DNA of 64,000 nt, taken from contig NZ_CP043006.1 of NCBI RefSeq assembly GCF_008086345.1, positions 5,330,032 to 5,394,031 on the forward strand. The letters are read 5' to 3'. This document shows positions 27,863 to 47,780 of the stretch, in pieces (within the stretch, counting starts at the first letter, position 1; each line of letters begins with the position of its first letter). The translations under genes and the position numbers were made by a program. The DNA comes from Chitinophaga sp. XS-30 (GTDB lineage: Bacteria; Bacteroidota; Bacteroidia; Chitinophagales; Chitinophagaceae). Below the pieces are notes generated by a model. That model made no database searches. It worked only from the letters and a program-made list of their open reading frames with translations, and was not told the DNA's origin.

Positions 27863-27955
27863 AAAATAAATTGTCATAAAACTGAAGGCATTTCCCTGAC
27901 CGGGGCATTGCCCGGCCGGGAATCCAGCGCTTTGCGGAACACGCCTGAACACTTG

Positions 27956-27990
27956 AAAGCCCTGCAAATCAATGATCTGCAGGGCTTTTA
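27956..27990. terminator. Hairpin ending the ATPase/RteC-like unit
   Basis: AAAGCCCTGCA (27956-27966) pairs with TGCAGGGCTTT (27978-27988), an 11-bp stem with an 11-base loop, with a TTTT on the plus-strand side. It lies 46 bp beyond the stop of the small 54-residue gene, so it should end that leftward unit. The T-run is oriented better for plus-strand transcripts. Confidence 0.6.
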
Positions 27991-28033
27991 TGCAAAGGCG
28001 CCTAAAACCCACGCTGTTTTTACAACGAACTTT

Positions 28034-28198
28034 TCACCATGCCTGCATCTCTTTTTCCAGATCGAACAGTGTGGTAAATTTCTCTTCCTCCACGGTCTGG
28101 GGTACAATATGCTCTTTTCGTCCCTTCAGAAATGTTTTCAGCATCTGTAATACCGACTTCTTTTCCGCATCACTGAGCCGCTTAAAGTATTCATGCAT
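28034..28198 (-). CDS. Small 54-residue protein, possibly related to short antitoxin-type proteins
   Basis: The ATG at 28198 is preceded by GGAGCAGGAA, a good ribosome-binding site for this phylum. The product is charged and helical (YFKRLSDAEKKSVLQMLKTF, then GRKEHIVPQTVEEEKFTTLF). The first part resembles the N-terminus of short Bacteroidota addiction-module antitoxins, where a LSxxEKxxLLxMVKTF-type helix precedes a YNKEL segment, but here the C-terminal part is shorter and different. No toxin lies beside it. It is the last gene before the hairpin and 107 bp after the ATPase gene. Confidence 0.5.
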   Translation of the reverse strand: MHEYFKRLSDAEKKSVLQMLKTFLKGRKEHIVPQTVEEEKFTTLFDLEKEMQAW

Positions 28199-28305
28199 TT
28201 CCTGCTCCAAGGCTTTGCCTATATTAACTCATTTTCTACAAATTCAAGATTTCATGGCCAAATATCAGCCTGTCATGACGTAGCTTTCACAACTCCACTG
28301 CCCCA

Positions 28306-28971
28306 CTATCGCCGCTTATCCGGCGTATCACCCGGAAACGTGATGAGGTTCAGCATCTGCCGCAACCGGCTGCGCACCCTTTTGCCGTACACCTCTTCAA
28401 CATCCTGGCTGTTCAGGTTGGTGGTAACATGGGTGATCATACCGTAGTTGACAAAAAGATCGTAGCGGCTTAGCAGGATCTCCCCCATGACCTGGCAGTG
28501 GCTGCCAAAGTGCATGGCGCTGCATTCCAGTCCCAGGTCATCGAAACAATAGGCTTTGGGTTCATAGCTGTGTGCGCGAAAGCTCTTTTTGGCATAGCGG
28601 GCAATCACTTCATATCCATCGGCGGAAAACTCGAAACTGATATCCCGGCAGGAACGCATGGCATGTACCTGGCTGGCTTCCATGAGGTAGTTCAGCAAAT
28701 GCATAAGGCTCGTTTTTCCCGCTCCAACGGGACCGTTAAGGAAAATGCCTTTATGTATCTCGATGTCCATTTTCTTTGCTACCGGCTCGTCTTTCAATAC
28801 CCAGCATATCATCCGGGCAATAACCGGCGCATCATCTTCCCTGAGCTGGAATTGCTCACCATATTTTTCGCGGCCTTTGAGTGTCAGTTGCACCCAATAT
28901 TCTGCGTAATCAAAACGGCTCTGCATAGTTTTTATCATCCTGGGAATGGAGATGGGTTTTACTGTTTCCAT
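28306..28971 (-). CDS. DnaC/IstB-like AAA+ ATPase
   Basis: The 221-residue protein has Walker A GPVGAGKTS at about 80-88 and Walker B YCFDDLG at about 141-147. A sensor-type THVTTNLNSQ near 190 and an arginine-rich end (GKRVRSRLRQML) suit an arginine finger. This is the fold of DnaC-type helicase loaders and IstB transposition helpers. The N-terminal 45 residues are not zinc-binding. The start at 28971 overlaps the upstream gene by 62 bp; Met16 at 28926 would reduce the overlap to 17. Its pairing with a winged-helix, DnaD-like protein resembles phage or plasmid replication modules. No transposase is present, so an IstB role is unlikely. Confidence 0.78.
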   Translation of the reverse strand: METVKPISIPRMIKTMQSRFDYAEYWVQLTLKGREKYGEQFQLREDDAPVIARMICWVLKDEPVAKKMDIEIHKGIFLNGPVGAGKTSLMHLLNYLMEASQVHAMRSCRDISFEFSADGYEVIARYAKKSFRAHSYEPKAYCFDDLGLECSAMHFGSHCQVMGEILLSRYDLFVNYGMITHVTTNLNSQDVEEVYGKRVRSRLRQMLNLITFPGDTPDKRR

Positions 28972-29659
28972 AGACTGAAGGTGTTTTTTTAGGGTTGATA
29001 TTCAGCATCCATTTATCGGCAGCGGCCTGCCAGTTGGTGATCGGGGTTTGGCGGCCAGTAAGCCAGCCGGTGCTTTCATAGTGCAGGAAGAACTTTTTTC
29101 CTTCCGCGGGGTCATAGCCTTTTTGCCGGCAATAGGCTGCTGTTTCGGCGCCGGACGGGATTGTTTGCTGAAAGATATTTTTTGTACCGGAAAGGGTGCT
29201 GTGACTGTTTACACTGTTTATTAATTTGTTTATCTGTTTATAAATGCGTCCCGTTTCCGGTACCGGAGCAGTATCATTTCCGGTACCGGTATGGGTCAAA
29301 ACCGGCCCGTTATCAGTACCATTTCCGGGTGGCGGGAACAGTTCCGCCTGGGGCACTGTTGCGGCGCCCGAAGGCAATGACAATATCTTCACCTTTGCCT
29401 TCGCGAACTTGTGCAGCGGCGGCTGGTACACGATATAACGGGCCAGGTGCAGTTCCTTCATGCAGGCATGATAGGTGTTCTTCGAACCGATCTTGCAAAG
29501 CTGCATGATCTGTTCCCGATGAATGGTGAATGCACTGCTGAAATGCACTTCATTCCAGCGTTGAAAGAGTGCCATGTAAAGGCTGATATGACTGGGTTTC
29601 AGGCGCTCATCCTGCCGTACCAGGCGAAAAAAGCTGTTGAGATGTATCACATAATTCAT
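28910..29659 (-). CDS. Winged-helix protein of replication-initiator/regulator type
   Basis: The ATG at 29659 gives 249 residues beginning MNYVIHLNSFFRLVRQDERL. The N-terminal 95 residues (SHISLYMALFQRWNEVHFSS, REQIMQLCKIGSKNTYHACM and ELHLARYIVY) match a winged-helix family common in Bacteroidota mobile regions and usually called a transcriptional regulator. The middle is a low-complexity proline/glycine/threonine linker (residues about 110-150). The C-terminal part (YCRQKGYDPAEGKKFFLHYESTGWL) resembles DnaD/replication-protein ends, with GWLTGR...ITNWQAAADKW. The role in the cytoplasm is likely DNA binding next to the ATPase encoded by the overlapping gene downstream. The function is inferred from architecture only. 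Confidence 0.72.
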   Translation of the reverse strand: MNYVIHLNSFFRLVRQDERLKPSHISLYMALFQRWNEVHFSSAFTIHREQIMQLCKIGSKNTYHACMKELHLARYIVYQPPLHKFAKAKVKILSLPSGAATVPQAELFPPPGNGTDNGPVLTHTGTGNDTAPVPETGRIYKQINKLINSVNSHSTLSGTKNIFQQTIPSGAETAAYCRQKGYDPAEGKKFFLHYESTGWLTGRQTPITNWQAAADKWMLNINPKKTPSVYGNSKTHLHSQDDKNYAEPF

Positions 29660-29770
29660 AGCCGGGGTTTTAAGCATTCGGATCAATGATCTTTAACCTG
29701 GCAGCGAATTAAGCGAATATTTTCATTCAGCAAACCTGTAAACTTTCCGGTAACAGGTGTAACCGGGTGA

Positions 29771-30622
29771 TTATGAGACTGATATTTTACCCTTTTTTTG
29801 TCTGCCGATCCTTTTTGTCATTTCATTCAGCAGGTCGGTGATCTTATCACGGACGCCTATCATGGCTGAAAGCCGGTTCTTGTAGTAGAGGGTTCTCAGG
29901 GAGCCGGGGTCAATTACATCCTGCGTGTTGGTAGCGTATATCCGGGCGGCTGCTTTCAGGAATTGCGTGGTGTTGCGCACCTTTACGATGCCCACGGCTT
30001 CGGCTGCATTCATCAGGCAGGCCAGTTCCTGGATATTCAGATCGAACACGATCTTGTCACCGGCATATTCGGGGTCTGCATCAGCCTCTTTATCCAGCCC
30101 GAGCGTCATCCGCTTTTCGAGATAAGCTATTTCTTCATCTATCCAGATATTCAGTTGCTTCTTCAGGTCCGGTAGTCCTGCTTCGTAGACGTGATCGTCT
30201 TTACCGGTGATCTGGTTGATCCGTTTGCGAATGAGTGCCAGTTTGTCAACTTTCGCGGCCAGGCTGGTTACTGCGGAGATCTTTGTTTCTATCGTCTCTT
30301 TGCAATACTGTATGGCTTTCTGATGATTGATATTGTAGCTGCAAAGCAGTACATGCAACTCCCGCTGCACCTGTCCGCCCCGGGCCACCACTGTCAGCAC
30401 ATCTTCCAGGAAAGCCAGGAGGCAATTGAACCGGCTGAATGTAGCGGGTTTGCTGTTCTCATAGGTCATGTTCTCCGTAGCGACGTCCAGTATCAGCTGA
30501 TGGAGGCGCTCGTTGATGTTGGCATCCGGCAGGCTGGATTTGATACGCTCAAGCAGTCCGCCGGGTTCGGGAGATAGCACAGCACGGATCAGTTGCTGTA
30601 ACGCCAGGATCTCTGCATTCAT
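29771..30622 (-). CDS. RteC-like domain protein
   Basis: The 283-residue protein is soluble and mostly helical, without signal peptide. The C-terminal half (IWIDEEIAYLEKRM..., KIVFDLNIQELACLMNAAEA, VGIVKVRNTTQFLKAAARIY and PGSLRTLYYKNRL) follows the pattern of RteC-type proteins. In those a W-x-G-S-like strand is followed by an LxxLIYAL helix, a variable loop and a final basic helix. RteC regulates excision of Bacteroides conjugative transposons. Here the W-x-G-S strand is replaced by a KIVFDL one, so homology is uncertain. It lies 111 bp upstream of the winged-helix gene and probably shares its transcript. Confidence 0.55.
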   Translation of the reverse strand: MNAEILALQQLIRAVLSPEPGGLLERIKSSLPDANINERLHQLILDVATENMTYENSKPATFSRFNCLLAFLEDVLTVVARGGQVQRELHVLLCSYNINHQKAIQYCKETIETKISAVTSLAAKVDKLALIRKRINQITGKDDHVYEAGLPDLKKQLNIWIDEEIAYLEKRMTLGLDKEADADPEYAGDKIVFDLNIQELACLMNAAEAVGIVKVRNTTQFLKAAARIYATNTQDVIDPGSLRTLYYKNRLSAMIGVRDKITDLLNEMTKRIGRQKKGKISVS

Positions 30623-30709
30623 AAGATGGTTTTGATTTTGGTTATGGTTTTGGTGTAATTCGCTGAACGGATCAAGGGGTTGAAAGTGCTAAAACTAAGA
30701 TTTTTTTTA

Positions 30710-30750
30710 GCAAAACAAAAAAAACCGTTCCCGATATGCCGGGAACGGTC
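30710..30750 (-). terminator. Strong intrinsic terminator after the small membrane-protein gene
   Basis: On the minus strand ACCGTTCCC-8 bases-GGGAACGGT is followed by TTTTTTTTGTTTTG. It begins 6 bp after the stop of the 69-residue gene, and it separates that two-gene unit from the RteC-like gene. Confidence 0.85.
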
Positions 30751-30755
30751 TGCAA

Positions 30756-30965
30756 TTATGCCTGCTTTCTGGCAGGTCTTCCGTAAGCCGCCTGGCTCAC
30801 CGCTGTGAGTACGCCGCCCGCAACTGCGAGGTATTGTGCAATATCGGTAACGATGGCCGGCATTGTTACCGGGGCGGTGATGATGGCGCCGCCTGCTGCT
30901 GCCAGTATTAAACCGGCGGTCCTGAGTTTGCGGAGGAGCGGTACCTTAGGTTTCCGCGGTTTCAT
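30756..30965 (-). CDS. Small two-helix membrane protein, holin-like in layout
   Basis: The 69-residue protein has a basic N-terminus (MKPRKPKVPLLRKLR), two hydrophobic segments (about 17-31, alanine/glycine rich, and about 41-58) joined by a short loop with prolines, and a basic tail (GRPARKQA). Size, two helices and charged ends match phage holins and other pore-type peptides, but no lysin gene is nearby and the match is structural only. The start overlaps the upstream stop as TGATG, indicating translational coupling with the 253-residue gene. Confidence 0.7.
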   Translation of the reverse strand: MKPRKPKVPLLRKLRTAGLILAAAGGAIITAPVTMPAIVTDIAQYLAVAGGVLTAVSQAAYGRPARKQA

Positions 30966-31726
30966 CAGGCATGTGATACTTTCACCAGCGCCAGGGCATT
31001 GAACGTGCCGTTGTTCATCACGTAACGGTTGCCATTAACCAGCTGGACGAATGAAATACCCAGTGCCAGGAAGAGCGGCTTTGCGCTGTTGGCAGGCAAC
31101 GGCATAGCCAGCGTCAGTGGTGCGGTGGCTGTGCCATTGATGGGCAGGTCTCCACTCGCGGCCACTTCACTTTTGTACAGGTTATTCACAAAATCCAGTT
31201 CCGCTGCAACGGCATGCAGTTCAAAGTGCGTGGCCCCAGCCGGGCTGGCAATAGCCGTCTCCGGAACGAATGGTGCAAAATCTACCTGCAGGTTGCCCGT
31301 TGCCCGGTCAATCACCGCCGTGTAAGGCGCAAAAAGCGATGTGCTGAGCGGCGAGGCGATGTTGAACTCAAAGCCTTCCAGCAGCGCGGTATCGCCATCT
31401 GCTATATTGCGCATGCCCCGGGGGCTGAGCGGGTCCGCTTTGACGGCGCGCATCATTTCGCGGGTGAGGCGGGTTACCAGCTTCCTGTCTTTCGACAGTA
31501 CAATGGCCGTTGCCATGGCCGAACGAAGCAGCTTGCTGCCTTTGCCCGCACGGCCAAATTCCGAGAGGTTTTCGCGGGTACGCGCGAACTTCGGGTCCGT
31601 GGCTATGCGTTCCGCGGAAACACCACCTTTCGTTCTTACGCGGTAGCCGTCTTTGGTTTTATAGAAGCTGAAGTTCCCTACAACTCCTTCGATTTGTATC
31701 ACACCGGATTGTTTTCCCATGATCAT
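30965..31726 (-). CDS. Conserved hypothetical 253-residue protein of Bacteroidota
   Basis: I do not recognise a named domain. The N-terminal third is basic and highly patterned (GVIQIEGVVGNFSFYKTKDG, RVRTKGGVSAERI and FARTRENLSEFGRAGKGSKL), followed by an arginine-rich helical part (TRLTREMMRAV). The C-terminal half is beta-rich (FEFNIASPLSTSLFAPYTAV, LFLALGISFVQLVNG). The TRENxxEFGRAxKxxKLLR signature is one I associate with a widespread but unnamed Bacteroidota protein group. No signal peptide is seen. The gene is coupled to a two-helix membrane protein and is divergent from a small HTH gene, so it could be a structural or DNA-binding protein of a reduced element (speculation). Confidence 0.72.
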   Translation of the reverse strand: MIMGKQSGVIQIEGVVGNFSFYKTKDGYRVRTKGGVSAERIATDPKFARTRENLSEFGRAGKGSKLLRSAMATAIVLSKDRKLVTRLTREMMRAVKADPLSPRGMRNIADGDTALLEGFEFNIASPLSTSLFAPYTAVIDRATGNLQVDFAPFVPETAIASPAGATHFELHAVAAELDFVNNLYKSEVAASGDLPINGTATAPLTLAMPLPANSAKPLFLALGISFVQLVNGNRYVMNNGTFNALALVKVSHA

Positions 31727-31884
31727 TTCAGTTTTAGTGTAAAAAATGTGGACACTTGCAAGGCGTGCCCGGTAAGCCTTTGGTGACGAGGCCAGGGAAC
31801 GTCTTCCCTGATTTCGTACATTCGGTACCGATAACAGCGAAGCTAGACCAGTCGCATTCCGTACAAAAAACAGATGACCGTTTT

Positions 31885-32097
31885 ATGCCAAAGTTTCCTG
31901 AAATGTCCCCCAGGCGAATAGTGATCTATCCCAAGGATATAGCGATGATGACGGGCCGTACCGAGCGTACGGCGCGGAGGATACTGGCACAGGTACGAAA
32001 AGCTTATGGGAAGAAATCGCGGGATTTTGTGACGGTGAGTGAATTTTGCTCGTTTGCGGGGTTTGCGGAGGATGAAGTGCTGGAGATGTTGCGGTGA
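31885..32097 (+). CDS. Small helix-turn-helix protein
   Basis: From the ATG at 31885 the product is 70 residues. IVIYPKDIAMMTGRTERTAR is a helix-turn-helix core and ILAQVRKAYGKKSRDFVTVSEFCSFAGFAEDEVLEML a second helical unit. A longer frame reaches 31756 but adds an unlike tail. The pattern is that of small excisionase/MerR-like DNA-binding proteins in Bacteroidota islands. It is divergent from the 253-residue gene (158 bp apart) and is followed after 19 bp by four 11-bp tandem repeats, which may be its binding sites. Confidence 0.68.
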   Translation: MPKFPEMSPRRIVIYPKDIAMMTGRTERTARRILAQVRKAYGKKSRDFVTVSEFCSFAGFAEDEVLEMLR

Positions 32098-32115
32098 CCG
32101 GTGGGGTTAAAGGGA

Positions 32116-32159
32116 GGGATGTCCCGGGGATACTCCGGGGATTACCCAGGGATACCAGC
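32116..32159. repeat. Four 11-bp tandem repeats, consensus GGGATACYCCG
   Basis: Units at 32116, 32127, 32138 and 32149 read GGGATGTCCCG, GGGATACTCCG, GGGATTACCCA and GGGATACCAGC. GGGAT is invariant and the right side drifts. An 11-bp period places every unit on the same DNA face. They lie 19 bp downstream of the small HTH gene and next to a long AT-rich stretch, an arrangement reminiscent of iterons or a regulator-binding array. Confidence 0.7.
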
Positions 32160-32476: not shown

Positions 32477-33229
32477 CTAATCACAGGGAACCGTAAAATC
32501 AGGGGTGTACCGGGGCGGTAATCCTGATGGGAAAACAGGAGGCCTGATCTGCTGTTCCGGGAAAGCGCTGTGCGCAACAAGATACAGGAAGCAATGTATA
32601 TCGTACCAGAGCAGGTTGCCGTATTCATCCAGCTCGTCAAAACTCTCGTAACCGTATAGCAGATCATGATCATAGATCCGTACCTGACTGTTTCCCGCTG
32701 CAACCGTCAGCGTGGCCACCGGTGAAGTATAATCCCCTACAACGGTGATATCGTTCTCATACGCGATCTCACGGATGATGTATTGAATGTTCACAGATTG
32801 GGGCAACACCAGCGGTTGCGTGCATGCGGCATCGCTGTAAAACCGGACATAGGCCAGCGGCTCATAATAGGCCCAGTAATAATCCGGCGGCGGATCGTCC
32901 GGGAAATAATACAGCGCGTCTATTTCCACCCTCGCATACAAATCGGCCGGAGGGCATCCCTGCAGTGGCACCAATTCGCTCCACCAGGGCATCCGGTTAT
33001 CGGAAGGCAGATGGCTTTCCTCCAGGTACAACCAGTTCAACGCCTCCGTTTTGCTAATGCAGAAATTGTCCTGTGGAATGGTGGTGCCGGCTTTCTGTAC
33101 AAAATATCCTTCCGACACTTTCTGCCGGATAAAATTATGGGTAACCAGGTGGTTCTGCGCTTCGGCGGACGCAGTTATCAGTATCAGTAATGCTGATAAT
33201 AAAAAGGGTGTAGTTATTGAAATCTTCAT
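32477..33229 (-). CDS. Secreted protein, shared N-terminal module with its neighbour, unique C-terminus
   Basis: The ATG at 33229 gives 250 residues with a signal peptide (ITTPFLLSALLILITASAEA). Residues about 24-95 are nearly the same as in the upstream neighbour: HNFIRQKVSEGYF, TTIPQDNFCISKTEALNWLY and LPSDNRMPWWSELVPL. The C-terminal part (about 100-250) is tyrosine/proline rich and beta-like (YYWAYYEPLAYVRFYSDAAC, VATLTVAAGNSQVRIYDHDL), with no recognised family. It is the last gene of the fibre operon. The module-plus-variable-tail layout suggests a common anchoring or export domain carrying different binding or effector ends. Confidence 0.75.
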   Translation of the reverse strand: MKISITTPFLLSALLILITASAEAQNHLVTHNFIRQKVSEGYFVQKAGTTIPQDNFCISKTEALNWLYLEESHLPSDNRMPWWSELVPLQGCPPADLYARVEIDALYYFPDDPPPDYYWAYYEPLAYVRFYSDAACTQPLVLPQSVNIQYIIREIAYENDITVVGDYTSPVATLTVAAGNSQVRIYDHDLLYGYESFDELDEYGNLLWYDIHCFLYLVAHSAFPEQQIRPPVFPSGLPPRYTPDFTVPCD

Positions 33230-33257
33230 TTGTATCTTTTGTATGCATTCGCGCCCG

Positions 33258-33842
33258 TTACTCCAGCAATAAATATACATCTCCTCCATTATACAGGTGG
33301 TGAGCCTCAAAATAAACCGTGCGGGGCAAATTGTCCCATTCATTATTGTCGTAAGCCTGCACTTCCACACCATTAACGATCATGACAAACCGGTAAAATT
33401 GCGCATTGCTAACGGTCGCTTGTATATAGGTGGGAGACCCGGTATAGGAACCATAGACCTCCAGGTCGCCCGGGCACAACTGATATGGCAACGAAAAACC
33501 CTGCAGGCCGGAAACACTGGTAATACAGCTTCCCCAACCCCAGGATTGGTTATAGACGGTCACCTGCCGGGAGACTGAGGGGAGCGGAACGATCTCGCTC
33601 CACCAGGGCATCCGGTTATCAGAAGGCAGGTAGCTTTCATCCAGGTAAAGCCAGTTGACCGCCTCCGTTTTACTGATACAGAAATTATCCTGCGGTATGG
33701 TAGTGCCCGGTTTTTGGGTAAAATACCCTTCCGTTACCTTTTGCCGGATAAAGTTGTGGGTAACCAGGTGATTCTGGGCATCCGCTGACTGCCTGAGCAG
33801 CAGCATTAACGTGATCTGTAATATTTTTATCCCTATCCTCAT
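33258..33842 (-). CDS. Secreted protein, paralogous N-terminal module, different C-terminus
   Basis: The 194-residue precursor has a signal peptide (ILQITLMLLLRQSADA). Its module HNFIRQKVTEGYF through LPSDNRMPWWSEIVPL is nearly identical to its downstream neighbour's, with over 80 percent of positions matching by eye. The tail (about 95-194) is short and beta-like (SWGWGSCITSVSGLQGFSLP and FYRFVMIVNGVEVQAYDNNE) and unrelated to the neighbour's tail. The start overlaps the preceding fibre stop by four bases (ATGA), so the pair is translationally coupled to the fibre gene. Confidence 0.75.
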   Translation of the reverse strand: MRIGIKILQITLMLLLRQSADAQNHLVTHNFIRQKVTEGYFTQKPGTTIPQDNFCISKTEAVNWLYLDESYLPSDNRMPWWSEIVPLPSVSRQVTVYNQSWGWGSCITSVSGLQGFSLPYQLCPGDLEVYGSYTGSPTYIQATVSNAQFYRFVMIVNGVEVQAYDNNEWDNLPRTVYFEAHHLYNGGDVYLLLE

Positions 33843-36800
33843 TTTGCATCCTGTTTTTGTTCAAGTAATTTTTCTACGAGCGCTTCCAGATTTTTCACTT
33901 TCTGTTCCAATGCTTCATTCTGCTGGTTCAACTCCTGTACGGACTTCACCAGTAGCGCCACCGTACTGGCCTGATCCACTCCCTTTCTACCGGGAATGGC
34001 GATCTCATCCGGCACCTCGTCCGCAATGAAGCCGATATTGGTTTTGCCTGTGCTGTCTGATTTGAACTGGAAGGTCCTGACCTGGGCGCTGCCGAGTATT
34101 GACAACGCCGAGGCTGTAAATGGCAGAATGTTCTTTTTGAGGCTTCTTAAAGACGATTGATAAAAGGAAGTAGCCAGGATGCTGGCGTTTGATGCGATGG
34201 ATCCGTTTACCTGGAGGGTGTTGGCGCCGTCATTCGTGGCGCCGTTCATGAGCGTTTTGCCATCTGCGAGGATTTCCATGCGTTTAGTCCAGCTACCGGC
34301 GGCATTGGTAACCCAGACAGCCAAGCCGGGATTGGTGTCGCCGTTGATCTGGAAATTAACACCTCTGCTTCCTGCGGCATTTCTCACCTCAAGCATATCC
34401 ACTACAGCATTGCTTCCGTTCTTGTATATCTGTATCTGGTTGGTGGAGCGGAAGATGCCGTTTATCATGGCGTTTGCAGATTGCGCGGTGGACAGCTGGT
34501 TCTGGATGTAATTACCGGAGCCGGAGGTGGGGGCTGCGCCGATGTCGGAGAGCATTTGGACGGGGGTTCGGCTGCTGATCGTACCAGCGTTGGAAACAAG
34601 ATAGGCTGATGCTGCGGTAGCGAGGGCTGGTATATTACCTAGTTTGAGCGTCTTATCAACATTAAATGTTGCGGCTGGCAATCCACCGCCCGGGAGCAAT
34701 TCTATAGGCTGGGCCACGTCCGTATAAATCCTGGCAGAGCCGGCCGGGCGGAATTGAATGAAACCGGTTCTCGCATTGTTCGCTGTATTCCAAACCGAGA
34801 GATATCCATCATCTTTTTGAATCCTGACCCCTTCCGACCCGGTGGATGCTTTGGATATCAGTTGTCCTTCGACTGTCAGTATCCCGGTACCATCCAGGCG
34901 TGCGATCTGGGTTGTGCCGCCGTACCATTTGAAGCCGTAATTAGCGGCATTTTGTGGAATGCTGTACCATTGATGTGAAGACTCCATACCCTGCGCATAA
35001 TCTACTGCTGTGGTGCTTAGCGAAGGATACATCACGATCTTTGTTCCTGCACTGAGGGTGGTAAAAGACGGGGCGGCAACTCCTACATTATTGAACTGTA
35101 TATGGTTACTGGTAGTATTGCTAAGGCTCAACTTACCGGGTGCAAAAACAGCAGTAACCAATCCTGCTGCGCCTATGTTCACCGGTCCTCCATCGGACAA
35201 TACATACATCCCATTGTTAGATCCACTGCCTATCCCTACATATCCCTGTCGCGTTGTGCCATTGGACTCATAGAAGCCCATCCATGACATATTTCCCACT
35301 CCAGTCCCTGATCCGGCTATCCCGGAAGTATTGGGTACGAGGGTTTTAACATTGTTCTTTATAAGTGTTGAACTCATTCTGGCACCTTCCAGCAATACCG
35401 TTGATCCCGCTTGTCCAACAAAGAAAGAAAGGTAAGCAGGATGAGAGCCTCCTGCCGTCCAGGCGGCGGCTGACCTCGCTTCAATCTGTGCGCCGGTGTA
35501 TGCACTGGCACCGGAGTAAGGGCCAAACAGCACACCGCCAAGTCTTTGATCACCGGCCGTAGGGATGCCGTTGTTATAAAACCTGGCAAAAGCCCCTGAT
35601 GTTGAAGAGATCCCCTCGGAGTTGTAAACACCAAGCCCTATTGTCCCTGCCCCGACAATTTGTAATTTGTTGGCGGCATTCGTTATGCCGATTCCCACAT
35701 TTCCACCGGCGGCGATATCCATGCGCACAGTTCCATTGGTACCGAACCTCAATGCCTGATTTATGTCAACCATCAGAGCACTGTTGGTGGCGGCATTGAA
35801 TTGCAAATATCCCGTTCTTGTGGTGTTGGTTGCATTATACCCGGATACAAAGGCAGCATTGTTCACCATGCGCAGTGCTTCGGTTGTTGATGTGGGATAA
35901 AGAGACATTCCTCCTCCGGCAGTCAGTTCCATGTTTTTCACCCATGCACTACCGTTATGTGTCCAGGTTGCGAGACCAGGGTTTGTATCCCCATTCAACT
36001 GAAATATTGCACCCCGCGTTCCAGCAGCATTCCTCAGTTCCAGTCCATTTATTATTCCATTGCTCCCATTCCGCCAGACCCCTACACTACCATTGGCACG
36101 GAATCCCCCGGTGATCCAGGCATTAGCGGCCTGGGCAACTGATATCTGGTTCTGTATATAGTTTCCTGAACCCGTGACCGGACTAAAAGTACTATTCACC
36201 CACGATCTGGATGCAACCTGATACCACGTACCCCATGATCCATCATTCGCTCCTCTTCTGTACCATACATTATCCTCCGCCACATAATCCTGGAATATCT
36301 GGAACTTCCCCTGAGTCGCCGCGGAACTGTTGCCGGCGGCAGACAAAAAGCCAGGATTCCCGGTAGGCCTGTTGGTGGCCGTGCCTACATGCAAGATCGC
36401 CGTATTGGTGATATCGTTCAGATCAGCGGTATATGGACTGATATACGGAGGGTTAGTGGTAGCAGCTATACGGCTAACTCCTGACAGATCGTCTGTCGTC
36501 AACGTTCTCGTATTGATGCCAACAATATGCCCGCTGGCATTACTTTGTATACCCTCCAATACTTTTGCGCCGGATAAATCAGGATTAAATGCATTACCAG
36601 CTGCATGATTATTGGAGTGCCAAACATCGTATGTATTAACCCCTCCATTCGGACTGTACCTGGGAGCTGTTCCGTTGAACGGAAGGTAGAATATTTTACT
36701 GTTTGCACCTGATCCATCCATTGAGGCGAAACTCGCACCGGGAAGCCCCCCTCCCGCTACACCAAATGACGCTGTATAGTTGGTTGCGTTCACATTTCTT

Positions 36801-37738
36801 ACTGCCTGATAAGTGTATTGGTTGAGATTCCCGTTTGCCCCTAACACAATATTATTTGTTGCCGTATTCCCATTCGCCAGAACCATCTGCAAAGGAATGC
36901 CAGCGGAAGCCGCACCAATATCCGATGGCGTTAATGTTCTTGTGGTAAACCCGGTAACATGGCCGCTGGCGTTGCTGGTGAAGCTGGCCGGGACATTCGC
37001 CCCTGTGAGTACCGGGGAGAAGGCTGATCCGGAAGCATGGTTGGCCGAGTGCCAATACTTCCCATCGGCATAATCCTTGAAAACCAGTTCCCTCCAAGCG
37101 CCCCAGGTGGTTTGCGTATCGTCCTTATTGCGGATAAAAACACCTTTGGGACCGGTAAGTTCTCCATCCCAGTTTACAGCCATCTGGTAACCGGCGGAGC
37201 CGTTCCATATTACATGGCCTGCATAGTAATTATTCCCCGATCCCGGATTGGTCAGCGCCTGATCGGATACTGCCGGCATATCCGGAGAACTATATGCATT
37301 GAAACCGGAGATTCGGCTGGCGGGGTACTCACCCACCGCGTAAGATACGCCCTGCGGGATAGCTTTGAATGATGGAAGCGGGGCGTAGATAGTATGCTGG
37401 ACGCCCCTTTTTACATACAGTATGTTATCTCCCGAGCGGTAAATGGTATCGACACTCCCTATTCCGGGAAGTGTGCTGATATCGAGGGTATCCTGACCGG
37501 AAATGGCGATCTGGCTGCCGCCGATGCTCTCCAGCCGAATACGGCGGAATTCCGTACGGCCGTTGCCTTTGTTGTATAAAAAGCCATTTACCCCACGGGT
37601 ACGATTTTCGATGATCAGCTCCGCGGTATCGCAGACATTGTAAATGCGCACACTGTCCGCACGGATCTGGTAAACGTGCTGGGCATTGCCTTGCTGACTA
37701 AGCAGTAATACAAACAGTACCTTGATGAGTTTCTTCAT
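33839..37738 (-). CDS. Giant secreted fibre-like protein with S74 chaperone end
   Basis: The 1299 residues start with a signal peptide (LFVLLLSQQGNA) and the module common to all five fibre genes (about 20-120: HVYQIRADSVRIYNVCDTAE, NGRTEFRRIRLESIGGSQIA). There follow fibre modules with RISGFNAYSSPDMP..., NYYAGHVIWNGSAGYQMAVN and WGAWRELVFKDYADGKYW (pyocin-knob-like), then repeated SDIGAA and NYIQNQ units with GLELRNAAGTRG...GDTNPGL. The C-terminus (about 1191-1299) is an S74-type intramolecular chaperone, with the putative catalytic Ser1196 and Lys1201 in SLRSLKKNI, then IGFIADEVPDEIAIPGRKG and a coiled coil. In phages this domain folds the trimer and cleaves itself off. A surface or extracellular trimeric fibre is the inference; its target is unknown. 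Confidence 0.85.
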   Translation of the reverse strand: MKKLIKVLFVLLLSQQGNAQHVYQIRADSVRIYNVCDTAELIIENRTRGVNGFLYNKGNGRTEFRRIRLESIGGSQIAISGQDTLDISTLPGIGSVDTIYRSGDNILYVKRGVQHTIYAPLPSFKAIPQGVSYAVGEYPASRISGFNAYSSPDMPAVSDQALTNPGSGNNYYAGHVIWNGSAGYQMAVNWDGELTGPKGVFIRNKDDTQTTWGAWRELVFKDYADGKYWHSANHASGSAFSPVLTGANVPASFTSNASGHVTGFTTRTLTPSDIGAASAGIPLQMVLANGNTATNNIVLGANGNLNQYTYQAVRNVNATNYTASFGVAGGGLPGASFASMDGSGANSKIFYLPFNGTAPRYSPNGGVNTYDVWHSNNHAAGNAFNPDLSGAKVLEGIQSNASGHIVGINTRTLTTDDLSGVSRIAATTNPPYISPYTADLNDITNTAILHVGTATNRPTGNPGFLSAAGNSSAATQGKFQIFQDYVAEDNVWYRRGANDGSWGTWYQVASRSWVNSTFSPVTGSGNYIQNQISVAQAANAWITGGFRANGSVGVWRNGSNGIINGLELRNAAGTRGAIFQLNGDTNPGLATWTHNGSAWVKNMELTAGGGMSLYPTSTTEALRMVNNAAFVSGYNATNTTRTGYLQFNAATNSALMVDINQALRFGTNGTVRMDIAAGGNVGIGITNAANKLQIVGAGTIGLGVYNSEGISSTSGAFARFYNNGIPTAGDQRLGGVLFGPYSGASAYTGAQIEARSAAAWTAGGSHPAYLSFFVGQAGSTVLLEGARMSSTLIKNNVKTLVPNTSGIAGSGTGVGNMSWMGFYESNGTTRQGYVGIGSGSNNGMYVLSDGGPVNIGAAGLVTAVFAPGKLSLSNTTSNHIQFNNVGVAAPSFTTLSAGTKIVMYPSLSTTAVDYAQGMESSHQWYSIPQNAANYGFKWYGGTTQIARLDGTGILTVEGQLISKASTGSEGVRIQKDDGYLSVWNTANNARTGFIQFRPAGSARIYTDVAQPIELLPGGGLPAATFNVDKTLKLGNIPALATAASAYLVSNAGTISSRTPVQMLSDIGAAPTSGSGNYIQNQLSTAQSANAMINGIFRSTNQIQIYKNGSNAVVDMLEVRNAAGSRGVNFQINGDTNPGLAVWVTNAAGSWTKRMEILADGKTLMNGATNDGANTLQVNGSIASNASILATSFYQSSLRSLKKNILPFTASALSILGSAQVRTFQFKSDSTGKTNIGFIADEVPDEIAIPGRKGVDQASTVALLVKSVQELNQQNEALEQKVKNLEALVEKLLEQKQDAK
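37397..37700. repeat. Repeated 5' coding block of fibre genes (copy 1 of 5)
   Basis: The DNA encoding the common N-terminal module is repeated with high nucleotide identity at about 37397-37700, 40820-41110, 43860-44160 and 47164-47480, with a shorter, more diverged copy at 49200-49330. Runs such as GCGCACACTGTC-type signal and ATCTGGTAAACGTGCTGGGC are shared almost base for base. Such blocks invite homologous recombination between genes and explain mosaic central modules. Confidence 0.75.
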
Positions 37739-37754
37739 TGGGCAAGGGAATTAT

Positions 37755-40700
37755 TTATTTTTTATCCTGCAATATCTTTTCAACAACCGCTTCCAGTTGC
37801 TTTACCTTCTGTTCCAATTCCTGATTTTGCCGCCCCAGCAATTGGTTTTGCGCCTCCAGTTCCTGAACGGACCTCACCAGCAGGGCTACTGTGCTGGCCT
37901 GATCCACGCCGGTCCTTCCCGGAATCGAGATCTCTTCCGGTACTTCATCCGCAATGAACCCGACATTCACCTTCCCGGTGGTATCTGCCTTGAAGCGGAA
38001 GGTCCTGACCTGGGCTTCTTTCAATATCGATAAAGCGGATACTGCAAACGGACGGATATCGTACTTCAGACTTCTGAGTGAGGTTTGATAGAACGATGCC
38101 GCATGCACCTGGCCTGTAACGGTCAGGGCGCCGGACATGCTAACATTCCCCGCGCCGTTAACGGAGAGGGCTTTAACTGCCACCCCCGCTCCGGAGGGAT
38201 TGTACACCTGCAGGTCAAGGAAATCCGAGGCGGCAGTGGTACTGGCAGTATGTGTAAACTGGTAGGCATGGCCCGTGTTGGTGTAAATAGCACCGTTGTT
38301 GACGTTTCGGTTAAATGCCAGCGCGCTGTGCCGGAAGGACATCCGTTCGCTGCCTGCTGTTCCGATGGCTAACAATCCTCTCATATCAAAATTGCCCACG
38401 CCGTCCAGTCTGGCTACTTCCGTGGTGCCGCCGTACCACTTGAAACCGTAGGTAGTGCTATTCTGCGGCACCGCGTTCCAGATGTTCGCCGTTTCCATAC
38501 CCATGCCGTAGTCTAATGCCGTAGTGGAAAGAGAAGGGTACAACACTACTTTTGTTCCGGCACTTCTGGTTGTCATAGCAGGTGGATTAACGCCCCCTGT
38601 GCTATAGATCAATGTATTTTTCGAGCCGTTGGAAAGATTGATATAGCCACCTGCATTCAGGTTGATATTGTTTGTACCGCTTGCGGCGGAGATATTCAAA
38701 CTGCCATTATCGGACAACAGCGAAATGTTCCGGCCGGTTCCGCCTGCATTGCCTACATATCCGTCTCTTGTCACCTGATCCGACTGCATAAACTGGATGA
38801 AGGACTGGTTGGTGGTTGTGCCGGTACCTACGGTAAAAGACCCGTTTGCCATTCGCAATGTGCCGGGGATGTAAACGGCTCCGGTGCTTCTGTATATGGT
38901 GAGGGCATCGGGTAATGGCGAACCGTCATCGGCACGCCTGTTAATAATAAAATCATATCCTATGTTACCACTGCCTGTTTCGTTGGTCCCGCCTCTTATA
39001 ATCCAGCGCAGTGCACCTGATGCATTCCTCAAATGATAACCTCCAGTTGCCGGCGCCGAATTATTCTCAAACTGGTTATTTGATCTGAATACTCCTGAAA
39101 TCCATGCATTTGCCGTCTGCGCAGCCGAGAAAGAATTACTGATATAATTGCTGCTGCCTGACAGCGGAGCGGCTCCAATATCCGAAAGTACCTGTGCCGG
39201 GGTCCTGCTCTGGATATTCCCACTTACATGCGTCAGAAAAGAAGAAGCAGTTGTACCGCTTGCCGGTATGCTGCCCAGGGTGAGCGATTTATCAGTGTTA
39301 AATGTAGCTCCCGGATTCCCGCCACCGGGAATGATCTGAATAGGTTGAGGTACATCCGTATATATCCTTGTAGCGGCATCTGCGCTGATCTGCACAAAAC
39401 CGGATCTGGCTGTATTTCCTGTATTGTAGAAGGCGATATATGACCCGTTATTGATTAACCTGATGCCTTCGGCCGCATTGGAATACATTGTGCCGCTGAC
39501 AAAAGCGCCGCCGTTAACCTGAAGTTTCTGCCCGTTGTCGTTTGTACTGCCGATCATGACGTTTCCCAGATGATTGATCCGCATTTTATTCGTCAGCTGG
39601 CCAGCCTGACGGGTATTGAAATCCAATGCTCCGTTTTCCACACCTGCCGTATTACCAAGTATGACTCCCCACATTTGCGCATAAGGCACGGCAGCTGATG
39701 AAGCATTAAGCGCGCTAAACTGTACACCACCAGTAGCAACGCCGCCGGTAGCCAAATTGCGAAATAGGTTTAGCGTGCTTTCCCCGCCGTTAAGGCGCAA
39801 GACACCATCAAACGTAACACTACCATTAGCAAAATACTCCTGCCGCTTCACCCATGTGCTGCCGTTGTGTATCCATGTTGCGAGGCCGGGATTGGTATCC
39901 CCGCTGAGTTGGAAACCGACACCTCTATTTCCTGCGTTATTCTGAAACAGGACATGTGGTGATGATGCAGGGGTATATGTATTACTGCCGTCTTTAGCAA
40001 CATCAAATCTATTGTTTGCACGGGCGATACCGGATACCCATAGATTGCCAATTTGCGGGGTTGAGAATTGATTCTGTATATAATTCCCCGATCCGCCAAT
40101 TGGTGCAAAAGTACTGTTTGCCCAGTTTTGAGAAGCCAGCTGAAACCAGGGACTGATTGCCCCCTCATGCTGTGTACGGTAATACATAGCGCCGCTCTTA
40201 AGCGCCACCTGGGCTCCATTTAATCCATCACCTGGAATATGCAAACCGTAATGCGTTCCGGTAACCGGGGCATTTGTGGCAACGGCGACAAACCGGCCTG
40301 CCGTGTTTCCGAAATAGGTATTCCACGCATAGGCAACCGGAACTTCAGGAACAGCCCCAATATCCGAAGCAGTCAACACCCTTGTCGTAAACCCCGTCAC
40401 ATGCCCGCTTGCATTACTGGAAAAACCCGCAGGTACATTCGCCCCCGTCAGCACAGGCGAAAATGCGCTACCAGGAGTATGGTTCCCCGCATGCCAGACT
40501 GCGCCACCCTTGTAATTGAACTTGTCACGACCCAGTGATAAAACATCCATCACCCCTTGTTCATTCGGCGCATTGCTCCGGAATATCCATCCTTCCGTTC
40601 CGTTGTCTGTTGATTCAAAGATCAGATTACCGGCAGGCGTATCCTGCGCCGACTCTGCAAATATCTTCCAGCTATCCGTATTATAAGACCATAAAAGCCC

Positions 40701-41156
40701 ATTGGACGGATTCCCCGATGCACTGTTGAACTGGATATTGTGGGTTGTGCTGGCTCCGCGGGAGGTAACGCTTTGCAGCGTTTCATTGGTGGACAATGGC
40801 GCAAATACAGTATAAGGTATTCCCTTCTTTACATACACAATATTATCCCCGGAACGGTAAACCGTATCAATGCCCCCGATCCCCGGCAGTGTACTGATAT
40901 CCAGCGTATCCTGCCCGGAAATAGCGATCTGGCTACCGCCGATGCTCTCCAGCTGCAACCTGCGGAACTCCGTACGGCCGTTGCCCTTGTTGTACAAAAA
41001 GCCATTTACCCCGCGGGTACGGTTTTCGATGATCAGCTCCGCGGTATCGCAGACGTTGTAAATGCGCACACTGTCTGCACGGATCTGGTAAACATGTTGG
41101 GCATACACCGGACTTCCCAGCAACAGTGCAAATAATAACTTGAAAAGCTTTTTCAT
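37755..41156 (-). CDS. Secreted fibre-like protein with S74 chaperone end
   Basis: The ATG at 41156 gives 1133 residues; an upstream TTG at 41165 is less likely. Order: signal peptide, common N-terminal module, a distinct early segment (LWSYNTDSWKIFAESAQDTP), SDIGAV/DIGAA modules, NGDTNPGLATWIHNG-type units, and a segment ending VNGAGNVSMSGALTVTGQVH. The C-terminal S74 domain keeps the Ser-Lys pair in SLRSLKYDI and GFIADEVPEEISIPGRTG, then a coiled coil (ELEAQNQLLGRQNQELEQKV). It follows the next fibre gene's start by 12 bp and precedes 33839-37738 by 16 bp, within one operon. It contains mixed segments from neighbours, consistent with recombination among paralogues. Confidence 0.83.
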   Translation of the reverse strand: MKKLFKLLFALLLGSPVYAQHVYQIRADSVRIYNVCDTAELIIENRTRGVNGFLYNKGNGRTEFRRLQLESIGGSQIAISGQDTLDISTLPGIGGIDTVYRSGDNIVYVKKGIPYTVFAPLSTNETLQSVTSRGASTTHNIQFNSASGNPSNGLLWSYNTDSWKIFAESAQDTPAGNLIFESTDNGTEGWIFRSNAPNEQGVMDVLSLGRDKFNYKGGAVWHAGNHTPGSAFSPVLTGANVPAGFSSNASGHVTGFTTRVLTASDIGAVPEVPVAYAWNTYFGNTAGRFVAVATNAPVTGTHYGLHIPGDGLNGAQVALKSGAMYYRTQHEGAISPWFQLASQNWANSTFAPIGGSGNYIQNQFSTPQIGNLWVSGIARANNRFDVAKDGSNTYTPASSPHVLFQNNAGNRGVGFQLSGDTNPGLATWIHNGSTWVKRQEYFANGSVTFDGVLRLNGGESTLNLFRNLATGGVATGGVQFSALNASSAAVPYAQMWGVILGNTAGVENGALDFNTRQAGQLTNKMRINHLGNVMIGSTNDNGQKLQVNGGAFVSGTMYSNAAEGIRLINNGSYIAFYNTGNTARSGFVQISADAATRIYTDVPQPIQIIPGGGNPGATFNTDKSLTLGSIPASGTTASSFLTHVSGNIQSRTPAQVLSDIGAAPLSGSSNYISNSFSAAQTANAWISGVFRSNNQFENNSAPATGGYHLRNASGALRWIIRGGTNETGSGNIGYDFIINRRADDGSPLPDALTIYRSTGAVYIPGTLRMANGSFTVGTGTTTNQSFIQFMQSDQVTRDGYVGNAGGTGRNISLLSDNGSLNISAASGTNNINLNAGGYINLSNGSKNTLIYSTGGVNPPAMTTRSAGTKVVLYPSLSTTALDYGMGMETANIWNAVPQNSTTYGFKWYGGTTEVARLDGVGNFDMRGLLAIGTAGSERMSFRHSALAFNRNVNNGAIYTNTGHAYQFTHTASTTAASDFLDLQVYNPSGAGVAVKALSVNGAGNVSMSGALTVTGQVHAASFYQTSLRSLKYDIRPFAVSALSILKEAQVRTFRFKADTTGKVNVGFIADEVPEEISIPGRTGVDQASTVALLVRSVQELEAQNQLLGRQNQELEQKVKQLEAVVEKILQDKK

Positions 41157-41168
41157 TGGGTACAAGAA

Positions 41169-44100
41169 CTACTTATTCTGATGACGTAATATTTTTTCCA
41201 TACGGACTTCAAATGCCTCCATCCGCTGCTGCAGCATCATATTATCCTTTCGCAAGGCTTCATTCTCCAGCTTCAGTTCCTGGATGGATTTCACCAGTAA
41301 GGCAACAATGCTCGCCTGATCCACACCTTTTCGTTCGGGGATAGCGATTTCATCGGGCACCTCGTCCGCGATAAACCCGATATTCGTTTTTCCTGTGCTG
41401 TCTGCCTTGAACTGGAATGTTTTGACTGCTGCACGGGCAAGAATTGAAATAGCAGAGCCGGTAAAAGGATGAATGTTCATCTTTAGTTCACGCAGGGAAG
41501 TCTGGTAAAAAGAAGTTGCCGTCATGCTGCCTGTTGCGGACACCGACCCGTTCACCTGCAGTTTATCCGTGAAATTGTCCACGGTTGTGCCAATAAGTAT
41601 GTTGCCCCCGGTGTTTGCCCGCATCCTTTCTATACCGCTTGTATAAAGGGCGAAAGGATGGGCCGTGGAAGTGCCGGCGACACCTGCATTCCCTGAAGCG
41701 GAATAAGTGAGGTATGAATTGACCGTTCCGTTATTGGATGTTAAAGACCGTGCGCTGAAGTTCCCTGTGCCGTCCAGCCGTGCAATTGCAGTTGTGCCGC
41801 CATACCATTTGAAACCCCGGATAGTAGAATTAAGGGGTACGCTATACCACTGGTAGCCGCTCTCAATTCCTATGGCATAATCAGTGGCAGAGGCTGTAAG
41901 TTCAGGATACAGTACTATTTTGGCACCTGCACTACGTGCTGTAAATGCCGGAACGTCAATACCTGCAGTATTAAATGACAAATGATTCTTCGTGTTATTA
42001 GTCAGCACAACCTCACCAACTGCATTTAGCTTAATATCAGCAATCGTGGATTGCAGCAACAAATTATCCACATCCGCAACCAACTGCACCTCCTGATTCC
42101 CTACACCACCATCACCTACATAACCTTTCCTTGTCGATCCATCATTCTCATAAAAGGAAAAGTATGCCAGGTTTGCCGCACCGGTATTGTTGCCCATTAT
42201 GCCTGATTGTACGGGCATGAGGGTTTTGCCCCTGAACGTAGCATTTTTGTTGGCCGCAATTGTCAATGCCGAACTTGCCTCTGAATCAGCAGCTCCTCCA
42301 GTTATGAAGTTGAAATATCCAGCTGTCCCATTGGCCTTAATATATATTGCTCCTTCTCTATCGAAAGACAATTTTTGTGCAACATTGCCCCCTAGCCGCA
42401 AGTGAGGGGCCGCCAGAGTTATTTCCGACCCATTCCCCGCCATTATGTTTGGAAAATGAAAAGTGCCGGTTGCAAATAATTCAAATCTTTTAACCCATGT
42501 GCTGCCGTTGTGTATCCAGGTTGCGAGGCCGGGATTGGTATCTCCGTTGAGTTGAATATTAGCACCCCTTGACAGATCGGAATTACTGAGCAAAAAAGAA
42601 CCAGACAATATGTTCAAACCGTTTTTCTGAACCCTGAACTGCCCACTGGAACGGCCTTCTCCGCTAATCCAAAAGTTAGAAGACGATTGTGTTGATGCAT
42701 TTTGACTTTGTATATAATTCCCTGCCCCCCCGGACGCCGCAAAATTGCTTGTCACCCAATCGCGATCCGCCAATTGTACCCATGGGCCGAAAGTACCGCC
42801 AGCCCTCCCCCGGAAAAACAGGTAATTAGACGTTGAGCTGGTATTCCCAAGTTGAAACCCATAGTTAATATCATATTTGGCATTGATTACAGCCCCCGCC
42901 AGTGCCAAAGCGCTGTTAGGCGAATTAAGCGGTATGGAGCCGCCGTTGTACAAGCCAACAATATTCGCCTGAAACGCAGTACCAATTGCCGTGTATGAGG
43001 TATTGAAATCTCCCTGTGAAATGTTGGATGTGATAGGCGCTCCAATATCCCCCGGTGTGAGCACACGGGTATTTATACCAACGATATGCCCGCTCGCATT
43101 GGACATTATTCCCTGCAGCACCCTTGCGCCGGAAAGATCAGGATTAAAAGCACTGCCTGCAACGTGGTTATCGCTTCTCCAGATATCAACATGTGAACCG
43201 TTATTATAATATTTTAGTGTACCGGTTCCGATATCTACCCGATACGTCGCCAGCGGAGCTGAAATATCCGGCGTCCAGGACAAGGAAGTATTGTTGTTGT
43301 TCGCGATCTGCGCTGACGCCGTAACGCCGTTTACCAGCCGCTTTATTGAGAATGCCCGGAATGCGGCGGAGGAGGGATTTATTTCCATGGAATTGGTGGT
43401 AACGGCGCCATTGTCCGTAACCGCCTGAAGATCACTGGTAGTGGGGAAAGACAAGGGCCTGCTGGTAATGTTATTCCAATGTACCTGCGCCTGTCCGCTG
43501 ATCAGCAGTGAAGAAACAGCCGCATATTTTCCGTCTGCATAATCCTTGAATACCAGTTCCCGCCAGGCGCCCCAAGTAGTTTGCGTATCATCCTTATTAC
43601 GGATAAAAACGCCTTTGGGACCGGTAAGCTCACCGTCCCAGTTCACTGCCATCTGGTAACCTGCGGAACCGTTCCTTACTACATGTCCGGCATAATAACT
43701 ATTCCCCGATGCAGGGTTGGTCAGCGCCTGATCCGAGACAGCAGGCATGTCCGGGGAGCTATAAGCATTAAAACCTGTAATGCGACTGGCCGGAAAATCC
43801 CCCACTGTATAAGATGTTCCATTGGGTATTTCCTTAAAGGCAGGCAGGGGTGCATAAATGGTATGCAGCGTCCCTTTTTTCAGGTACAGGATATTATCAC
43901 CAGAGCGATATATGGTGTCTATGCCGCCTATTCCGGGAAGAGCCCCGATATCCAGCGTATCCTGCCCGGATATTGCGATCTGGCTACCGCCAACACTCTC
44001 CAGCCGGAGACGGCGGAACTCCGTACGGCCATTGTTTTTATTATACAGAAAACCATTTACGCCACGGGTACGGTTTTCAATGATCAATTCCGCCGTATCA

Positions 44101-44207
44101 CATACGTTATAAATCCGGACGCTATCTGCGCGGATTTGATAGATGTGTTGAGCATAGGCCTGCTGACCAAGCAAAAGTAAAAACAGTACCCTGATGAGCT
44201 TTTTCAT
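41169..44207 (-). CDS. Secreted fibre-like protein with S74 chaperone end
   Basis: The 1012-residue protein has a signal peptide (LIRVLFLLLLGQQAYA), the common N-terminal module, the RITGFNAYSSPDMP...WGAWRELVFKDYADGKY knob-like segment, a SSLLISGQAQVHWNNI insertion, and repeated VDIWRSDNHVAGSAF, NPDLSGARVL and GDIGAP modules. The S74 end (SLRELKMNI, GFIADEVPDEIAIPERKGVD) retains Ser and Lys at five-residue spacing and finishes in a coiled coil. The distances to its neighbours (12 and 15 bp) show one operon. It shares the N-terminal 300 residues with the 33839 and 44223 genes but different central modules. Confidence 0.83.
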   Translation of the reverse strand: MKKLIRVLFLLLLGQQAYAQHIYQIRADSVRIYNVCDTAELIIENRTRGVNGFLYNKNNGRTEFRRLRLESVGGSQIAISGQDTLDIGALPGIGGIDTIYRSGDNILYLKKGTLHTIYAPLPAFKEIPNGTSYTVGDFPASRITGFNAYSSPDMPAVSDQALTNPASGNSYYAGHVVRNGSAGYQMAVNWDGELTGPKGVFIRNKDDTQTTWGAWRELVFKDYADGKYAAVSSLLISGQAQVHWNNITSRPLSFPTTSDLQAVTDNGAVTTNSMEINPSSAAFRAFSIKRLVNGVTASAQIANNNNTSLSWTPDISAPLATYRVDIGTGTLKYYNNGSHVDIWRSDNHVAGSAFNPDLSGARVLQGIMSNASGHIVGINTRVLTPGDIGAPITSNISQGDFNTSYTAIGTAFQANIVGLYNGGSIPLNSPNSALALAGAVINAKYDINYGFQLGNTSSTSNYLFFRGRAGGTFGPWVQLADRDWVTSNFAASGGAGNYIQSQNASTQSSSNFWISGEGRSSGQFRVQKNGLNILSGSFLLSNSDLSRGANIQLNGDTNPGLATWIHNGSTWVKRFELFATGTFHFPNIMAGNGSEITLAAPHLRLGGNVAQKLSFDREGAIYIKANGTAGYFNFITGGAADSEASSALTIAANKNATFRGKTLMPVQSGIMGNNTGAANLAYFSFYENDGSTRKGYVGDGGVGNQEVQLVADVDNLLLQSTIADIKLNAVGEVVLTNNTKNHLSFNTAGIDVPAFTARSAGAKIVLYPELTASATDYAIGIESGYQWYSVPLNSTIRGFKWYGGTTAIARLDGTGNFSARSLTSNNGTVNSYLTYSASGNAGVAGTSTAHPFALYTSGIERMRANTGGNILIGTTVDNFTDKLQVNGSVSATGSMTATSFYQTSLRELKMNIHPFTGSAISILARAAVKTFQFKADSTGKTNIGFIADEVPDEIAIPERKGVDQASIVALLVKSIQELKLENEALRKDNMMLQQRMEAFEVRMEKILRHQNK

Positions 44208-44222
44208 TAGGCAAGGGAATTA

Positions 44223-47519: not shown

Positions 47520-47618
47520 TAGGTAAACGGATAATTCAGGTTTAATTTTATTTAATTCTTCTAGATTTTCTTTTGCACCGAAATAACAATGCTATAATGC
47601 GAATTTGACCTGCACTGT

Positions 47619-47768: not shown

Positions 47769-47780
47769 AATGCCATCTGA

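Follow-up and report, generated by a model that had tools for sequence, protein, structure and literature searches.

The 64,000-nucleotide stretch of Chitinophaga sp. XS-30 analyzed here (contig NZ_CP043006.1, positions 5,330,032 to 5,394,031; hereafter the window) carries at 28.3-32.1 kb a cassette of six intact genes, which encode a small helix-turn-helix (HTH) protein, p253, the two-helix membrane protein TM69, p283, a winged-helix protein (WH) and a DnaC-like ATPase. We conclude that this cassette probably belongs, as a compact form without an integrase, to a family of integrative elements of Bacteroidota. Pfam and NCBIfam searches recognized almost nothing among the cassette proteins, and no description of the element family, or of DUF6943, DUF6266 and DUF5675, was found in the open-access literature; the family is thus apparently undescribed. 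A sequence-only reading of the window had proposed a replication-like cassette of an undescribed element. All open reading frames (ORFs) that it named exist, and its proposal agrees with the predicted pair of initiator and helicase loader as well as with the literature search.

Integrase-bearing elements and their compact relatives

A scan of 84,980 species genomes located p253 at 64 loci, nearly all in Bacteroidota, and at most of these both TM69 and the small HTH gene (tblastn) adjoin it. In Cecembia rubra and Cyclobacterium lianum, the genes HTH-p253-DUF5675-TM69-TM61 form one end of an element of ~40-46 kb, the other end of which consists of ATPase-WH-xis-RteC and a 415-amino-acid (aa) tyrosine integrase with Arm-DNA-bind_5, Phage_int_SAM_5 and PF00589 domains. 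Copper/heavy-metal resistance genes make up the cargo between the two ends, as judged from ORFs read by eye, and restriction genes are likewise carried among the elements. The same backbone order was found in Marivirga, Brumimicrobium, Lishizhenia and Paraflavisolibacter; Lacibacter has the same genes, with the integrase adjoining HTH. Such full elements measure 15-60 kb, occur across several orders of Bacteroidota and, between two attachment (att) sites, have the backbone HTH-p253-(DUF5675)-TM69-TM61 ... cargo ... ATPase-WH-xis-(p283 or RteC)-tyrosine integrase, the HTH gene being conserved at the att end. For 11 of ~60 p253 copies, the opposite strand has an integrase 22-60 kb downstream (p ~4e-14 under a rough uniform model).

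A circular form and att sites were also recovered. The one plasmid record with p253, a 25.3-kb circle of Marivirga (NZ_CP129969.1), has the same gene order with HTH next to the integrase gene (int), which is exactly what closure of the integrated form between HTH and the integrase would produce. In Shiella, an exact copy of the 17-nt att sequence GTCGGGGTGGCAGGATT marks each end, at L015:7355 on the p253 side and at L079:11034 on the integrase side, and in Cecembia the right att copy lies in a tRNA-Pro gene while the left copy matches at 15 of 17 positions, two positions differing. These are ordinary tRNA-targeting att sites, the repeat lying at the 3' end of a tRNA. The earlier description of the element as integrase-less holds for the window copy, but relatives with an integrase exist and show a tRNA-targeting integrative element. 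Since the element ends of Cecembia and Shiella, two genera, are 98% identical over 3 kb, the elements do move between genera, and this transfer was recent. No relaxase, type IV secretion system (T4SS) or packaging gene was recognized when the ORFs of the elements were read by eye, without an exhaustive hidden Markov model scan.

In the window's own genome, the nearest integrase (PF00589) is ~180 kb from the cassette. The same genome has a probable mobilizable element (L231, 153.2-159.7 kb), the int and xis of which (157.95-159.68 kb) are of the type found in the full elements, together with two mob-like genes of 510 and 127 aa, as read by eye. Int, xis, WH and ATPase, which make up the integrase end of the full elements, are also found on three contigs of uncultivated virus genomes (UViGs) in IMG/VR (L195-L197), and in L195 an amidase-like gene directly follows the ATPase.

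Within the window's genus, 26 of 40 genomes have the ATPase. Full elements with int and xis within ~5 kb of it are found at L164-L168 and L172, L171 has xis, and many other ATPase copies in the genus are integrase-less. Among 40 ATPase loci of the genus, mostly picked for want of an integrase, p253 lay within ~4 kb of the ATPase at 15, compared with ~0.5% expected at random (p ~1e-24). Two compact arrangements were distinguished: WH and ATPase either face p253 (L101, L102, L142, L155, L159 and L163) or run in the same direction as p253 (the window, L141, L144, L146, L152, L153, L157 and L176), and the gene order of the window is repeated in L152, L157 and L176. Co-occurrence in conserved order, which the sequence-only reading had suggested looking for elsewhere, is thus seen in these loci and in the full-element backbone.

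About a dozen genomes have integrase-less compact forms with the same genes. Two species have kept such a form at orthologous loci, L152 and L157. Another genome (G035) has two such copies, L101 and L102, that are 88.6% identical over 4773 bp; because the pair ends in different flanks, the compact form must have been copied in one piece, and a search of the borders for a target-site duplication or dif-like site gave nothing convincing. Three relatives, which match the left-flank query at 86%, 77% and 75% identity, have no cassette at this site: synteny ends at 27868-27892 of the window, and one of them has a solitary p253-like gene there. Remnants with two or three backbone genes were found as well (L104-L106 and L110).

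A putative origin inside the WH gene

The sequence-only reading had recognized a winged-helix protein overlapping a DnaC-like ATPase, and both the overlap and the assignments were confirmed. The ATPase matches the DnaC-like helicase loader family phrog_50 of PHROGs at 6e-16, and its Walker A motif, GxxGxGK, is invariant in alignment A4. WH weakly matches DnaD-like and replication initiation proteins in PHROGs and has no Pfam family match, the RepA_N domain included. Its AlphaFold2 (AF2) model comprises a confident winged helix at residues 1-95, a disordered stretch at 106-164 and a confident helical domain at 170-222, and the best Foldseek neighbors, which are weak matches, are the N-terminal domains of RepA_N plasmid initiators (5kbj, 4pql and 4pt7).

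Across the loci, WH genes contain, at about nt 320-500, direct repeats (iterons) with a spacing of 22-24 or 45-48 bp, and the disordered linker coincides with this region. We compared the repeats with those expected from codon-synonymous shuffles of the WH genes. At lags around 22-25 and 44-49 that are not divisible by 3, 257 repeat pairs were seen versus 69 expected, whereas control lags gave 47 versus 36; the window WH gene alone has 13 pairs versus 1.3 expected. As repeats at the protein level cannot give lags that are not multiples of three, the iterons are a DNA-level signal. In most WH genes an AT-rich run of TAAACA motifs comes after the iterons. Iterons within the WH gene are new here. 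The sequence-only reading had instead pointed to tandem repeats, which are present near the HTH gene but weak (Table 1), and it missed the stronger 23-bp-spaced iterons.

In RepA_N plasmids the origin boxes are central in the rep gene (PMC5703833), and at the sequence level this hallmark, in-gene origin iterons, is seen in the WH gene. Like RepA_N initiators such as those of pSK41 and pTZ2162, WH has an N-terminal winged helix, a central linker encoded by the origin iterons and a C-terminal helical domain; it differs from them in having no Pfam RepA_N match and in being encoded next door to a DnaC-like ATPase partner. Phage lambda, too, has its origin inside the O initiator gene (PMC7466680). 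Iterons and an AT-rich tract in the middle of an initiator gene are common to lambda O/P and WH, and here an overlapping helicase-loader gene comes next, although no sequence relation to lambda O/P was shown, the cassette loader is of the DnaC-like AAA+ type and the hosts are Bacteroidota. Because the iterons and AT tract lie in the linker-coding stretch, and because of the likeness to RepA_N and lambda O, WH and ATPase most likely constitute a replicon of initiator and helicase loader, as judged from their sequences. In such a replicon, the winged helix of WH would bind the iterons, the AT-rich tract would then melt, and the C-terminal domain of WH together with the ATPase would load the host DnaB helicase, so that the excised circle may replicate by the theta mode.

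The p253-TM69 module and the surroundings of the cassette

p253 belongs to no known sequence family. Its AF2 model is confident (pLDDT 91.8), with N-terminal beta-hairpins plus helices and a C-terminal beta-sandwich; thus the structure prediction that had been recommended succeeded, but revealed no known fold, as Foldseek gave no confident PDB or viral match (best TM-score below 0.5). p253 was absent from phages and from IMG/VR, where 110 pattern matches were obtained and none was confirmed, which speaks against the reduced phage origin considered earlier. Nor is p253 bound to the cassette: it also occurs alone, outside elements or in other modules, in up to 15 copies per genome. Fifteen p253-family genes were counted in one Litoribacter genome (G025) without an int415-type integrase. 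At L109:3930-9128, in the window's genus, the p253 domain forms the N-terminus of a 1732-aa RHS-type protein, the sole fusion seen. In Algoriphagus (L044:7406-7873), a DUF6266 gene lies directly upstream of p253, and the two may be distantly related.

TM69 is a conserved family with 30 members in alignment A6. Its two helices and its coupling to p253 by TGATG are real as first described, but its holin identity is marginal: a weak PHROG match (0.0035) was obtained in one member only, and TM69 is holin-like at best. Full elements and modules with TM69 also encode a hydrolase, the type of which varies between DUF5675, Amidase_2 and Muramidase. As exchange of hydrolase types is typical of lysis modules, this suggests that TM69 and interchangeable peptidoglycan hydrolases form a lysis- or export-like module, in which TM61 would also take part and which may be served by p253. 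Phage lysis cassettes and holin-hydrolase (type 10-like) export systems similarly combine a small membrane protein with interchangeable hydrolases; they differ from the case of TM69 in the weakness of its holin match and in that the window copy has no peptidoglycan hydrolase. Other Chitinophagaceae (L185-L188 and L192-L194) have modules of RteC and p253, mostly with TM69, some of which are preceded by an AbiJ_NTD4-domain protein.

Full elements have a homologue of p283 (tblastn 23-29%, E 6e-9 to 7e-17), placed between the integrase gene and xis, and homologues occur in 40 of 296 family genomes. p283 had been called RteC-like, an assignment that we rejected: it has no Pfam match at all, PF09357 (RteC) included, and hhalign of A2 versus A3 gave a probability of 0.4. 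True RteC (PF09357) holds the p283 slot in some other elements, and it is a reasonable guess that the two have a common regulatory role; with the small HTH protein, p283 (RteC in other elements) would regulate excision and replication. In the window's own genome, RteC and p283-like genes stand side by side at 125 kb and at L233 (289.8-292.0 kb), the latter without an integrase.

The features of the cassette are listed in Table 1. As had been noted, its two leftward units are each closed by a hairpin of their own, and no integrase, relaxase or capsid gene was recognized around it. Pfam and PHROGs detected no virion, packaging or helper-hijack gene in the cassette. Pfam gave no family for the HTH protein, and the 54-residue ORF, correctly reported before, had no homologue in the fetched loci searched. 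Compared with full elements, the p283-WH-ATPase block has the opposite orientation. A defense-system identity was discarded, PADLOC giving only weak P-loop matches.

Table 1. Cassette features and their positions in the window
Feature	Position	Strand	Remarks
Terminator-like hairpin, left cassette edge	27956..27988	-	16-nt arms, 94%
54-aa ORF, ATG start	28034..28198	-	cassette membership uncertain
DnaC-like AAA+ ATPase, putative helicase loader	28306..28971	-	62-bp overlap with WH
WH, initiator-like protein	28910..29659	-	winged helix, disordered linker, C-terminal helical domain
AT-rich tract TTTATAAACAGATAAACAAATTAATAAACAGTGTAAACAG (coding strand)	29200..29243		adjoins iterons
Putative origin iterons TTTCCGGTACCGG	29254..29328		inside WH gene; spacing 23 and 45
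p283	29771..30622	-	full elements have a ~400-aa homologue, placed between integrase and xis
Terminator-like hairpin 3' of TM69	30722..30751	-	13-bp stem + T run
TM69, two-helix membrane protein	30756..30965	-	coupled to p253 by TGATG
p253, 251 aa from second Met	30965..31720	-	no family or fold assigned
Small HTH protein, 70 aa	31885..32097	+	divergent from p253
Weak 11-bp tandem repeat near HTH end	32123..32156		3.2 copies; Tandem Repeats Finder (TRF) score 43

Both flanks are cellular: a sigma/anti-sigma/SusC locus lies to the left, and genes for secreted S74 and RHS proteins lie to the right. A phage tail module was rejected for the latter genes, as their products look secreted, with signal peptides recognized by eye, and cellular RHS proteins are among them. 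On this side, 32477-33842 encodes the adjacent secreted paralogues p298 and p194, with N-termini 75% identical and differing C-termini; 33839-49376 holds a tandem array of five secreted proteins with the common N-terminus HVYQIRADSVRIYNVCDTAELI, four of which end in a Peptidase_S74 domain; and at 51079-59585 an RHS-repeat protein is split, probably by a frameshift, into two overlapping ORFs of 2174 and 710 aa.

Alternative readings and significance

Several observations weigh against reading the cassette as a member of this family with a working replicon. Int, xis, DUF5675, TM61 and DUF6943 are all missing from the window copy; no tRNA was found at it, and the att-like direct repeats sought at its edges turned out to be of chance length only. 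The PTPxFF motif is partly lost in its TM69, and the roles of p253 and TM69 are predictions. As for the origin, WH resembles RepA_N weakly in Foldseek (E 0.3), just 8 of 35 WH genes taken singly have a significant AT-rich motif, no clear iterons were found in the WH genes of L155, L157, L153 and Cecembia, and at L101 and L102 the iterons and a TGTTTAT tract lie outside the WH gene, beyond p283. The window copy could accordingly be a decaying relic, left over from a full element after loss of int, xis and cargo and inactive now, and we regard this as a real possibility, though not the one we favor. The missing integrase, xis and hydrolase, the inverted block, the diverged TM69, the edges without att and the remnants seen elsewhere all fit with decay. 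However, none of the six ORFs is disrupted, the iterons are conserved, and integrase-less compact forms recur in about a dozen genomes, one of them duplicated and one kept at orthologous sites (L152/L157). If the window copy is still mobile, it would need an integrase in trans.

Phage satellites of the PLE/PICI-like type resemble the full elements in being integrated and in having their own initiator with iterons and no virion genes, and a PLE satellite uses a RepA_N initiator (PMC7145576). That the elements excise, initiate their own replication and depend on a helper phage for packaging, with TM69 and hydrolase aiding lysis, is suggested by these features, the integrase, the lysis-like module and weak ATPase relatives in phages, but it seems unlikely: p253 is missing from phages and IMG/VR, no helper or packaging function was seen by eye, a scan that was not exhaustive, and neither the variable sizes of 4.8 to 60 kb nor the cargo of metal-resistance and restriction genes points to a headful limit. 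Similarly unlikely in our judgment is a domesticated regulatory or envelope island, in which HTH, WH and p283 would control p253/TM69 or the neighboring SusC/D and secreted-protein genes and replication would no longer be relevant. Some compact copies do adjoin sigma/anti-sigma and SusC/D genes (the window, L153 and L110), a LytTR gene is present in some copies, and the RHS-type fusion of p253 would suit such a role; yet the SusC/D adjacency is weak because these genomes abound in such loci, and iterons under synonymous constraint point to a DNA-level function of the WH gene. Chance neighborhood of genes of unrelated origin, for which only the solitary occurrences of p253 could speak, is refuted by the co-occurrence and the repeated gene order and can practically be dismissed.

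The family reading, which we prefer, also brings the elements close to the integrative mobilizable elements (IMEs) and conjugative transposons (CTns) of Bacteroidetes, such as NBU1, Tn4555 and CTnDOT, with which full elements have in common a tyrosine integrase, an HTH_17 xis-like gene and, in some, RteC. All Bacteroidetes IMEs reviewed encode a relaxase (PMC5704250), whereas neither a relaxase nor a T4SS gene was seen by eye in the full elements. A bolder proposal, to which we give rather little credence as a whole, is that they are a new class of replicative integrative elements lacking relaxase and virion, the circles of which replicate from the in-gene origin and exit via their own membrane-protein/hydrolase module, p253 being a carrier or surface protein and compact units of <5 kb being spread by integrases acting in trans.

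With conjugation and virion genes both unrecognized in the family, how the elements cross genera becomes a testable question. The elements also give a first context for p253, which reaches several copies per genome, and for DUF5675 and DUF6943. If the family reading is true, Bacteroidota would harbor a widespread family of integrative elements with metal-resistance and restriction cargo, the origin of which is embedded in the initiator gene.

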